A DNA stretch of 40,955 nucleotides from an uncultured Bacteroidota bacterium (lineage in GTDB: Bacteria; Bacteroidota; Bacteroidia; Flavobacteriales; Flavobacteriaceae), in the NCBI GenBank assembly GCA_902511755.1, contig CABXGL010000012.1:1-40955 (forward strand), in the 5' to 3' direction. Below the pieces are notes generated by a model. It worked only from the letters and a program-made list of their open reading frames with translations. It ran no database searches and had not been told where the DNA came from. This document shows positions 9,133 to 40,955 of the stretch, in pieces. Numbering within the stretch: position 1 is the first letter of the stretch; every line of letters begins with the position of its first letter. The position numbers and the translations under genes were made by a program.

Positions 9133-9214
9133 GCGGGTGTGGTGAAATTGGTAGACACGCTAGACTTAGGATCTAGTGCTTTACGGCTTGGGGGTTCGAG
9201 TCCCTTCACCCGCA
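9133..9214 (+). tRNA. tRNA-Leu (anticodon UAG)
   Basis: An 82-nt class II tRNA. The acceptor stem GCGGGTG/CACCCGC closes exactly. The D arm contains AAATTGGTAGACACGC. The anticodon stem CTAGA/TCTAG holds the loop CTTAGGA with anticodon TAG. A long variable arm (GCTTTACGGCTT) and a T arm with GGTTCGAGTCC follow. The discriminator base is A. CCA is not encoded and must be added after transcription. The long variable arm and the anticodon both identify leucine (CUN codons). Confidence 0.95.
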
Positions 9215-37985: not shown

Positions 37986-39008
37986 ATGATTTTTAAATTG
38001 AAGTTTAGAAATATACTTTTATTTCTAATTTTTCCTTTAATATCCTATTCTCAATCAGGTTTTGAGTCAATTCTATTGGCTGTAGAAGACGATTCAAAAA
38101 AAATATTTAAAAGATATATGAATCCTTTAATGAAAGGAGCTATTTATAGTTCTAATTCAGGATGGTACAATACAGCAAAAGTCCATAGTAAATTAGGAGT
38201 TGATTTAAGTTTTAGACTAAATACAACATTTGTTCCATCTTCTGAGCAAACTTTTTCTATTTCTGACTTAGAAAATATAACTAGCAATGCTAAAAATTTA
38301 CCAACAATAATTGGAGAAAATAGACAAGAGAATTTATTGATTACTATTCCTGCAGATGGTCTTTTACCAGAATTAAAAACAACTGTTAAAGCTCCTAAAG
38401 GAATAAAAAGCAAATTGCCTTTAGGAGGAGTTCCAGCTCCAGTATTACAATTGGGAGTTGGAATTCCTTTTGACACAGAAATAATCATAAGATATAGTCC
38501 TGAATATCATCGAAAAGGTATAGATATGTCTTTAAAAGGATTAGGAATTAAACATAACTTACTTCAATATTTTGGGCCGATTGATAAATTTCCATTAAAT
38601 GTTTCTGCATTTGCCTCTTTTTCTAAAATGGAAATTGATTATGATATCCAATCATTTAGTTCAATAAAAGGATCTGGTCAGGTTGCAGAATTTAGTCTTA
38701 ATAATTATAATTTATTATTGTTGGCATCTTTGGACGTTTTAGTTGTTAATTTTTACTGTGGATTTGGTTTAACAGGCGGAAGCTCTTCTTTTAAAATGAT
38801 AGGACAATATGATTTAGAGTATCAAACACAATCAAATGTTCCTGTAAACAAAACTTTAATTGACCCAATTGATATAAATTTTAATACTTCAAATTTTCAG
38901 ACTACAATTGGAGCTAAGTACAAATTTTTGATTTTTAGCACTTTTATAGACTTTACTTTTCAGAAATACAAGACCTTATCTGCTGGGATTTCTACAAATT
39001 TTAGATAG
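37986..39008 (+). CDS. DUF6588-type outer-membrane/secreted protein
   Basis: 340 residues with a signal peptide ending around YSQSG (about residue 23). The opening GFESILLAVEDDSKKIFKRYMNPLMKGAIYSSNSGWYNTAKVH is characteristic of a Bacteroidota family I recognise as DUF6588. Mid-region VGIPFDTEIIIRYSPE and repeated amphipathic strands toward the C-terminus (FSTFIDFTFQKYKTLSAGISTNFR) suggest a small outer-membrane barrel. Function unknown. A TATCTTTA element (37973-37980) lies too close to the ATG to be a convincing promoter, so it may be read from the TonB-like gene 53 bp upstream. Confidence 0.7.
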   Translation: MIFKLKFRNILLFLIFPLISYSQSGFESILLAVEDDSKKIFKRYMNPLMKGAIYSSNSGWYNTAKVHSKLGVDLSFRLNTTFVPSSEQTFSISDLENITSNAKNLPTIIGENRQENLLITIPADGLLPELKTTVKAPKGIKSKLPLGGVPAPVLQLGVGIPFDTEIIIRYSPEYHRKGIDMSLKGLGIKHNLLQYFGPIDKFPLNVSAFASFSKMEIDYDIQSFSSIKGSGQVAEFSLNNYNLLLLASLDVLVVNFYCGFGLTGGSSSFKMIGQYDLEYQTQSNVPVNKTLIDPIDINFNTSNFQTTIGAKYKFLIFSTFIDFTFQKYKTLSAGISTNFR

Positions 39009-39066
39009 TTTTTAGTGTTAATAGTTTTTTGTTATTTCAATAACTAATATTACATTTACATTAGTT

Positions 39067-39153
39067 ATGTTTAATACAAGATTATCTTTTTATACAGAAA
39101 AGTTTTATTTCTTCTTCTATTTTGGAGTTGAAAAAGGACTTTCATATATATAA
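39067..39153 (+). CDS. aromatic-rich leader peptide of the pheA attenuator
   Basis: A 28-codon ORF, ATG to TAA, in the 205-bp gap before pheA. It has 7 Phe and 4 Tyr in 28 residues, including the run KFYFFFYF at residues 12-19 (seven consecutive aromatic codons, 39103-39123). It ends 24 nt before the terminator hairpin. Its tail (39135-39140) contains AGGACT, the complement of the terminator 5' arm. This is the classical layout of a leader peptide whose translation senses charged tRNA-Phe/Tyr, analogous to E. coli pheL but with no sequence relationship implied. The product itself is expected to be inert. Confidence 0.75.
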   Translation: MFNTRLSFYTEKFYFFFYFGVEKGLSYI

Positions 39154-39183
39154 GATTTTTTTAAATATATAATTTTTAGTCCT
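39135..39183 (+). promoter_or_regulatory. candidate antiterminator of pheA
   Basis: AGGACT (39135-39140), inside the leader ORF, can pair with AGTCCT (39178-39183), the outer six bases of the terminator 5' arm. An inner AT stem (ATATATA near 39144-39150 with the same at 39165-39171) could extend it. The two structures are mutually exclusive. A ribosome at the leader stop codon would cover AGGACT; one stalled at the FFF codons would leave it free. Confidence 0.65.
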
Positions 39184-39205
39184 GATTTTTCAGGACTTTT
39201 TTTTT
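39178..39205 (+). terminator. attenuator terminator upstream of pheA
   Basis: A perfect 8-bp stem AGTCCTGA (39178-39185) / TCAGGACT (39190-39197) with a TTTT loop and eight further T residues. It is a textbook intrinsic terminator ending only 8 nt before the pheA ATG. That position would block pheA unless it is regulated. Confidence 0.85.
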
Positions 39206-39213
39206 AATGCAAT

Positions 39214-40035
39214 ATGAGCAAAGTAGGAATTCAAGGAATTAAAGGATCTTACCATCATCAGGTGGCAATGGACTTTTTTGGAAAAAAAATAGAAATAGCA
39301 GAATTTATGTCTTTTGATGAATTGGTTAATTCAATAATAAATAATAAATGTGAAATGGGAGTTATGGCGATTGAAAATTCAATTGCAGGATCAATAATTC
39401 CAAACTATGCATTGATTGATAATTCTAATTTAAAAATTATTGGTGAACATTATATTAATATTAACCATCAATTAATGGCCTTTCCAGGATCAAAAATTAA
39501 AGATCTAGGTGTAGTAGCTTCTCATCCTATGGCTCTTTTACAATGTAAAGAGTTCTTTAGGAAACATTCTAAAATTACATTAGTTGAAGATAAGGATACT
39601 GCTGCAGTTGCTTATAGAATTCAAAGAGATAAAATTAATAATATGGGAGCAATTGCTAGTGTTGAAGCTTCTAAAATTTATGAATTAGAAATTTTAAGTG
39701 AAAACATTCAAACTATAAAAAATAATGAAACCAGATTTGTAATTGTTTCTAAAAATCTATTAAAAAATGATTCTAAATTTGATAAAGCATCTCTTAAATT
39801 TGTGCTAAGTCATAAAACAGGTAGTTTATCTTCAGTTTTAGAAATTCTAAAAGATTGCAATTTAAATTTGACAAAAATTCAATCTCTTCCTATTGTAGAA
39901 ACTCCTTGGAAGTATTCTTTTTTTGTTGATACAACTTTTAATTCTATAGATTATTTAAATAAAGCATTACGATTAATGGATGAAAAATCAGAATTTCTTA
40001 AAGTATTAGGAATTTACCAAAATAAAATTAGATGA
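39214..40035 (+). CDS. pheA: prephenate dehydratase with ACT domain
   Basis: 273 residues. PheA converts prephenate to phenylpyruvate, the committed step to phenylalanine. The catalytic PDT domain (about 1-175) runs from VGIQGIKGSYHHQVA through MGVMAIENSIAGSI to the hallmark TRF triplet in NNETRFVIVS. The C-terminal ACT domain (about 190-265) has the HKTGSLSSVLEIL effector-site motif. The usual ESRP is QSLP (TKIQSLPIVE), a variant I recall from other Bacteroidota PDTs, so feedback by Phe is likely but not certain. There is no chorismate mutase domain. It overlaps the next gene by 4 bp (ATGA) and lies directly behind the attenuator. Confidence 0.93.
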   Translation: MSKVGIQGIKGSYHHQVAMDFFGKKIEIAEFMSFDELVNSIINNKCEMGVMAIENSIAGSIIPNYALIDNSNLKIIGEHYININHQLMAFPGSKIKDLGVVASHPMALLQCKEFFRKHSKITLVEDKDTAAVAYRIQRDKINNMGAIASVEASKIYELEILSENIQTIKNNETRFVIVSKNLLKNDSKFDKASLKFVLSHKTGSLSSVLEILKDCNLNLTKIQSLPIVETPWKYSFFVDTTFNSIDYLNKALRLMDEKSEFLKVLGIYQNKIR

Positions 40036-40955
40036 TTAAAGGTTCAAAAAGATTAGATACAGTTTCAGAATACTATTTTTCAAGAAAATTAAGAGAAGTA
40101 TCTGCTTTACATGACTCAGTACAGCCTGTTATTAATATGGGAATAGGTAGTCCTGATTTATTTCCATCTAAAGAAATAATTAAAGCTTTGAAGAAAAGTT
40201 TAGATCATAAAAATGCTCATAAATATCAGAGCTATCAAGGCTTACTAGAATTACGTGATGCTATCTCAAAATTTTATTATAAATTTTTTAGAGTAAAATT
40301 AAATCCTGAAAATGAGGTATTGCCATTAATTGGATCGAAAGAAGGAATTATGCATATTTCTTTAGCATTTTTAAATCCAGGTGATGAGGTATTAATACCA
40401 AATCCAGGATATCCTACATATTTATCAGTTACTAAATTAGTTGAGGCAAATCCTCTTTTTTATGATTTATCAAAAGAAAATAATTGGTTTCCTAATCTAT
40501 ATGATTTAGAGAAGAAAGATTTGTCAAAAGTCAAAATTATGTGGGTTAATTATCCTCATATGCCTACTGGTTCTTCTGCAACTTTAAAACAATTTCATGA
40601 ACTAGTTGTTTTTGCAAGAAAAAACAATATTTTGCTAGTAAATGACAATCCATATAGTTTTATTTTAAACAATGATTTTATAAGTCTATTATCTGTAAAA
40701 GGCTCAAAAGAAAATTGTATGGAACTAAATTCTTTGAGTAAATCTTTTAATCTTTCAGGATGGAGAATTGGGATGTTATTAGGGGCTAAAAAAAATATTT
40801 CTAGAGTTTTAAAAGTTAAAAGCAATATGGATTCAGGAATGTTTTATGGAATTCAAAAAGGAGCTATAGAGGCACTTAATTCTGATATAAATTGGTTTAA
40901 AAAACTAAATACTATTTATAATAAAAGAAGAGAACTAGTTTGGGAATTAGCATCT
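40032..40955 (+). CDS. class I/II aminotransferase, 3' end outside window
   Basis: 308 residues are visible and the frame is still open at the window end. PLP-dependent aspartate-aminotransferase-fold enzyme. It starts MIKGSKRLDTVSEYYFSRKL, with the substrate loop MGIGSPDLFP, HKYQSYQGLLELRDAI, NPGDEVLIPNPGYPTY, and the Schiff-base Lys in LSKSFNLSGWRIGM. The canonical NPxNPTG loop appears as NYPHMPTG. Translational coupling to pheA and the shared attenuator suggest it makes phenylalanine/tyrosine from phenylpyruvate/4-hydroxyphenylpyruvate. In Bacteroidota this slot is usually followed by tyrA and a DAHP synthase/chorismate mutase gene, not visible here. Confidence 0.88.
   Translation, partial: MIKGSKRLDTVSEYYFSRKLREVSALHDSVQPVINMGIGSPDLFPSKEIIKALKKSLDHKNAHKYQSYQGLLELRDAISKFYYKFFRVKLNPENEVLPLIGSKEGIMHISLAFLNPGDEVLIPNPGYPTYLSVTKLVEANPLFYDLSKENNWFPNLYDLEKKDLSKVKIMWVNYPHMPTGSSATLKQFHELVVFARKNNILLVNDNPYSFILNNDFISLLSVKGSKENCMELNSLSKSFNLSGWRIGMLLGAKKNISRVLKVKSNMDSGMFYGIQKGAIEALNSDINWFKKLNTIYNKRRELVWELAS

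Follow-up and report, generated by a model that had tools for sequence, protein, structure and literature searches.

The window analysed here is a 40,955-nt stretch of DNA from an uncultured marine member of the Flavobacteriaceae. At its 3′ end lies pheA, whose stop codon is overlapped by the ATG (40032) of an aminotransferase gene, and a DUF6588 gene (37986-39008) precedes them on the same strand. The intervening DNA holds a predicted promoter, a short ORF, and a set of alternative hairpins (Table 1). The first-pass annotation had taken the controlled unit to be pheA and the aminotransferase. Both genes do adjoin, but the unit is larger in two relatives (L033 and L048), where the genes behind pheA encode the aminotransferase, prephenate dehydrogenase (tyrA), and a fusion of DAHP synthase and chorismate mutase. 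Operon content beyond the aminotransferase is taken from these two loci, the window ending before the third gene.

Table 1. Features of the pheA leader region and the genes behind it, in window coordinates.
Feature	Position	Strand	Basis
Predicted Bacteroidetes-type promoter	39028..39058	+	Scored scan; like boxes in most relatives
Leader peptide ORF MFNTRLSFYTEKFYFFFYFGVEKGLSYI (predicted)	39067..39153	+	ORF list; like ORFs in 124/130 family genera
1:2 hairpin (predicted)	39099..39142	+	-12.5 kcal/mol, z -3.2; 1/200 shuffles folds as well
Control codons FYFFFYF, strand 1 core	39103..39123	+	Sequence; kept in relatives
Strand 2, AGGACT, antiterminator 5′ arm within leader ORF	39135..39140	+	Sequence; covaries with strand 3
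2:3 antiterminator hairpin (predicted)	39135..39183	+	Fold, -9.8 kcal/mol
3:4 intrinsic terminator hairpin, 8 bp, loop 4 (predicted)	39178..39197	+	-11.7 kcal/mol, z -5.2
Terminator T8 tract; predicted attenuated 3′ end about here	39198..39205	+	Sequence
pheA, prephenate dehydratase	39214..40035	+	PF00800 (E 1.4e-53), PRK11898
Class I/II aminotransferase, runs past window end	40032..40955	+	PF00155

The leader ORF comprises 28 codons and ends in a TAA at 39151-39153. Counting both strands, the 41-kb window has 534 ATG-initiated ORFs of 10-42 codons; at least seven aromatic residues out of nine were found only in the pheA leader, and nowhere else on either strand is an aromatic short ORF accompanied by both a terminator and an antiterminator strand complementary to it. 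In relatives, TTT and TTC, and likewise TAT and TAC, interchange at the control codons while aromatic identity is unchanged, and a Trp codon is present in 86 of 129 leaders. With enzymes for Phe and Tyr synthesis and for entry into the common pathway, the operon would account for the Phe and Tyr control codons and for the Trp codon too; its content in the two relatives fits the sensing of both Phe and Tyr.

The terminator reads AGTCCTGA-TTTT-TCAGGACT, and 8 nt separate the end of its T8 tract from the pheA ATG (39214). No other terminator-like site occurs in 38800-39400 (shuffle mean 0.1). Strand 2 is complementary to AGTCCT (39178-39183), the 5′ arm of the terminator (strand 3), and is also, letter for letter, part of the terminator 3′ arm. 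In the predicted 2:3 hairpin, the pairing of 39135-39140 with 39178-39183 is accompanied by an A-U helix between 39145-39151 and 39165-39171. In the predicted 1:2 hairpin, the U/C-rich control codons pair with the purine-rich 3′ part of the leader, in which AGGACT lies. The first-pass annotation had located the leader ORF with its aromatic run and the terminator with its eight T correctly to the base, and the complementarity that it had noted between AGGACT and AGTCCT was confirmed. The folding of 39067-39205 that it had proposed as a check was better than that of any of 200 shuffles. Its remark that no 1:2 pause hairpin was obvious proved wrong, as the one in Table 1 is also conserved; because this hairpin exists, masking by the ribosome need not be the whole switch, as had been suggested.

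Upstream of the ORF, the predicted promoter consists of a -33 box TTTG (39028-39031), a 19-nt spacer, and a -7 box TACATTTA (39051-39058), which would place the transcription start at about 39063 and leave about 4 nt of 5′ UTR. Most relatives have a counterpart of the form TTTG-N18-TACTTTAG; a score of at least 13 was reached in 107 of 129 loci as compared with 51 of 129 shuffles, an enrichment of two-fold only. At most loci, a box pair TTTG-N18/19-TACNTTAG or similar typically ends 8-22 nt upstream of the leader ATG, so that the predicted 5′ UTR ranges from a few to about 18 nt. The position of the box, -12 to -5, agrees with that in a published transcriptome study (PMC9723704). The exact TANNTTTG pattern showed no enrichment across the window. 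A scan for a sigma-70-type promoter gave no clear excess over chance, and the Bacteroidetes-type box was used instead.

To follow the element through the family, upstream regions were gathered via the PheA protein from one genome per genus, plus named genomes, and the full composite (aromatic leader ORF, terminator, and matching antiterminator strand) was called under fixed rules. It was detected in 124 of the 130 pheA-bearing Flavobacteriaceae genera (Flavobacterium, Sinomicrobium, Gelidibacter, Bizionia, Formosa, and Euzebyella being among the named ones) and in 0 of 260 dinucleotide-shuffled upstream regions used as a control. Six genera were missed: L134 is cut at a contig end, L165 and L169 have a leader and a terminator by eye, and L183, L193, and L198 carry pheA seemingly without the leader element. 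Sampling of the phylum outside the family yielded the composite in L243, L244, L246, L247, and L269, and it was recognized by eye in L276; it was not seen in the other members of this thin sample, including a second family of the same order (L232, L241, and L242). Since that family and the three genera seem to lack it, the element is not indispensable. Repeats occur at some of these loci: L198 has repeats of type GACCTGNTAGGT where the leader would be, and short repeat copies (GTTCGAAGAACGAAATAAAATGAACTAGTTGAACTAATCCCGCC..GGCGGGAT) lie upstream of pheA in L004, L050, and L056, in the last of which they separate the terminator from the start of pheA and put the attenuator about 200 bases away.

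This distribution bears on whether the terminator belongs to pheA at all. It might merely end the DUF6588 unit, with the pheA promoter behind it and the short ORF a product of chance in AT-rich DNA; a same-strand gene does end at 39008, and T-rich DNA readily yields short Phe/Tyr-rich ORFs. We consider this extremely unlikely. A promoter would not fit into the 8 nt that separate the pheA ATG from the T tract, and the element stays beside pheA where the DNA farther upstream is unrelated (L033-L035). The resemblance of L033 to the window is limited to the leader-terminator region, so the element does not represent the end of the gene before it. Its retention across the genera, its absence from the shuffles, and the covariation of strands 2, 3, and 4 likewise argue against a chance origin.

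That covariation is apparent from the terminator 5′ arm, which is of clade-dependent types (GTCTC, GTCCC, GTCCT, ATCCC, ATCCTG, ACCCGG, GCCTT, and GTTCC), and from the segment where the leader ORF ends, which changes along with the clade-specific arm. We measured it with an alignment-free test comparing own with swapped pairings. The pairing score of strand 2 with its own arm averaged 16.7, as compared with a permuted mean of 13.4 and a best of 14.3 among 500 permutations, an excess of which part reflects shared ancestry because the permutation tests take related sequences as independent. The test replaced a MAFFT core alignment in which strand 2 is one base out of register between clades, for which reason pair counts based on that alignment understate the covariation. 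As judged by sequence comparison, strands 2, 3, and 4 have changed together several times. The first-pass annotation had looked to relatives for a short Phe/Tyr-rich ORF with covarying arms, and this is what they carry.

Folding of the relatives pointed in the same direction. With strand 4 absent, pairs between strands 2 and 3 form in the minimum-energy fold of 128 of the 129 loci, and the median energies of antiterminator (-14.1) and terminator (-13.3) are near balance. At least five pairs of the 1:2 hairpin are present in 120 of 129 loci, and the own combination of strands gave -7.5, as compared with a permuted mean of -6.0 and a lowest value of -6.3 in 200 permutations. By shuffled z-score this hairpin is weak in most species (median -0.9), so its support is aggregate. 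With respect to geometry, the leader stop codon ends between -12 and +20 nt relative to the end of strand 2, the ORF stopping ahead of strand 2 in some loci and behind it in others, always within reach of a ribosome. Between the last control codon and strand 2 lie 7-28 nt, in most cases 9-18. The ribosome footprint is about 15 nt on each side; a ribosome at the stop codon would therefore cover strand 2, and one stalled in the aromatic run would leave it mostly free.

The same data speak to a route in which the leader acts chiefly on pheA translation or on Rho, with the hairpins secondary. The terminator hairpin is close to the pheA start in the window and could also affect initiation. Such closeness is not required, as the terminator of L005, L010, and L056 stands tens to hundreds of bases away from pheA; together with the T tract behind the hairpin in nearly all loci and the near-balanced energies of the two alternative folds, these gaps make a translational or Rho-dependent route highly unlikely.

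We conclude that the pheA leader very probably works by classical ribosome-mediated transcription attenuation, with control codons for Phe and Tyr and with 1:2, 2:3, and 3:4 alternatives, an ordinary mechanism that is well supported by the comparison. The region has a short leader ORF with a run of end-product codons (FYFFFYF in the window), a predicted intrinsic terminator between that ORF and the first gene, a predicted antiterminator that is exclusive with the terminator and conserved by covariation, and a 1:2 hairpin that would involve the control codons, both in the fold of the window and in relatives. The attenuation of the pheL/trpL kind proposed in the first-pass annotation thus draws support from the conserved leader ORF, the covarying arms, and the antiterminator fold in relatives.

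Parts, geometry, and the covariation of strands 2, 3, and 4 are shown by comparing sequences; from these we infer stalling, termination, and a response to Phe and Tyr. Transcription would start a few bases upstream of the leader ORF. When charged tRNA-Phe and tRNA-Tyr are ample, the leading ribosome would pass FYFFFYF, reach the stop codon, and cover AGGACT, whereupon the 3:4 terminator would form and the RNA would end at about 39205. If charging of either tRNA falls short, the ribosome would stall on 39103-39123 and open the 1:2 hairpin; strand 2, being free, would pair with AGTCCT, no terminator would form, and pheA and the downstream genes would be transcribed. In the absence of translation, the 1:2 hairpin would hold strand 2, making termination the default. 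A broader proposal, to which we give slightly less than even weight, is that a single ancestral Bacteroidota attenuator on an almost leaderless mRNA pools the charging of Phe, Tyr, and often Trp tRNAs and sets the whole Phe/Tyr branch plus DAHP synthase in one operon, its mechanism having been conserved while the three strands were jointly rewritten many times.

In E. coli, the pheL leader carries Phe codons, precedes pheA alone, and forms 1:2, 2:3, and 3:4 hairpins. The pheA element resembles enterobacterial pheL in its leader peptide ahead of pheA and in these alternatives, but it has Phe and Tyr codons (with Trp in about two thirds of genera) and precedes a Phe/Tyr/DAHP-synthase operon. The multivalent E. 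coli leaders ilvL and thrL sense several amino acids of one operon; they share with the pheA element the use of one leader for several amino acids and differ from it in the amino acids and the phylum. Searches of Rfam gave no match to the window leader or to the scanned pheA leaders. The Phe_leader (enterobacterial pheL) and T-box covariance models had no match there at gathering score or at E ≤ 10, and the Bacteroid-trp model (RF01692) had none in the window or the scanned pheA loci, matching before trpE only.

In other phyla, aromatic genes can be controlled by T-box-like RNAs or riboswitches, and the leader could in principle be an RNA that binds uncharged tRNA or another ligand, the ORF being incidental. 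The five matches obtained before pheA at E ≤ 10 are chance matches, none of them a T-box and none at gathering level. The whole leader is about 140 nt long, all of it taken up by the ORF and the alternative hairpins, and the aromatic codons are conserved as codons. We therefore regard a ligand-binding RNA as scarcely credible here and retain ribosome-mediated attenuation.

Within the phylum Bacteroidota, Rfam accepts the Bacteroid-trp leader RNA (RF01692; Weinberg et al. 2010, PMC2864571) as a family. Like the pheA element, it has a short leader ORF with control codons and a terminator shortly before the first gene; unlike it, it has Trp codons and belongs to the trp operon. The RF01692 model matches the trpE leaders of four relatives (L286-L289), so that attenuation logic of this kind is already accepted in the phylum. 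A 2021 transcriptome of F. psychrophilum reported structured 5′ elements before pheA and hisG, conserved in other Flavobacteriaceae genera and unmatched in Rfam, along with strong indications of leader-peptide attenuation ahead of amino-acid operons (PMC9723704). Its pheA element, a transcribed 5′ region, is very likely the one analysed here, and the earlier statement that the element is not described for flavobacteria was thus too strong. The main text of that study does not describe a pheA leader peptide, control codons, three-strand covariation, or a range beyond the family, and the main text of Naville and Gautheret (2010) mentions neither Bacteroides nor pheA. Relative to these texts, the present analysis adds the anatomy of the pheA element, the covariation evidence, and its range. 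An RNA element outside Rfam that, to judge from the same texts, had so far only been flagged by a transcriptome study is thereby given a full, testable anatomy. Flavobacteriaceae form a major part of marine, freshwater, and soil communities, and the recurrent concerted changes of strands 2, 3, and 4 offer a natural data set on alternative RNA pairing.

Leaders of other biosynthetic operons were also encountered. His-rich leaders (e.g., MNNIQLHHHHFHTCAQAR) precede hisG in L282-L285 and Trp-run leaders precede trpE in L286-L291, all about 110-360 nt ahead of the conserved domain and each followed by a terminator. The trpE leaders of L290 and L291, the latter from the window's genus, score below the Bacteroid-trp cut-off, and the window's own genome, an assembly that is 68% complete, yielded no hisG. 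Together with the pheA element, the presence of trp and his leaders in the same relatives indicates that leader-peptide attenuation is a routine control of amino-acid synthesis in flavobacteria. Two further RNAs were recognized in the searches, a SAM-II long-loop riboswitch at L033:1388-1447 (RF01726, 72.5 bits) and a tRNA gene at 9133-9214 on the forward strand of the window (RF00005, 57.7 bits).
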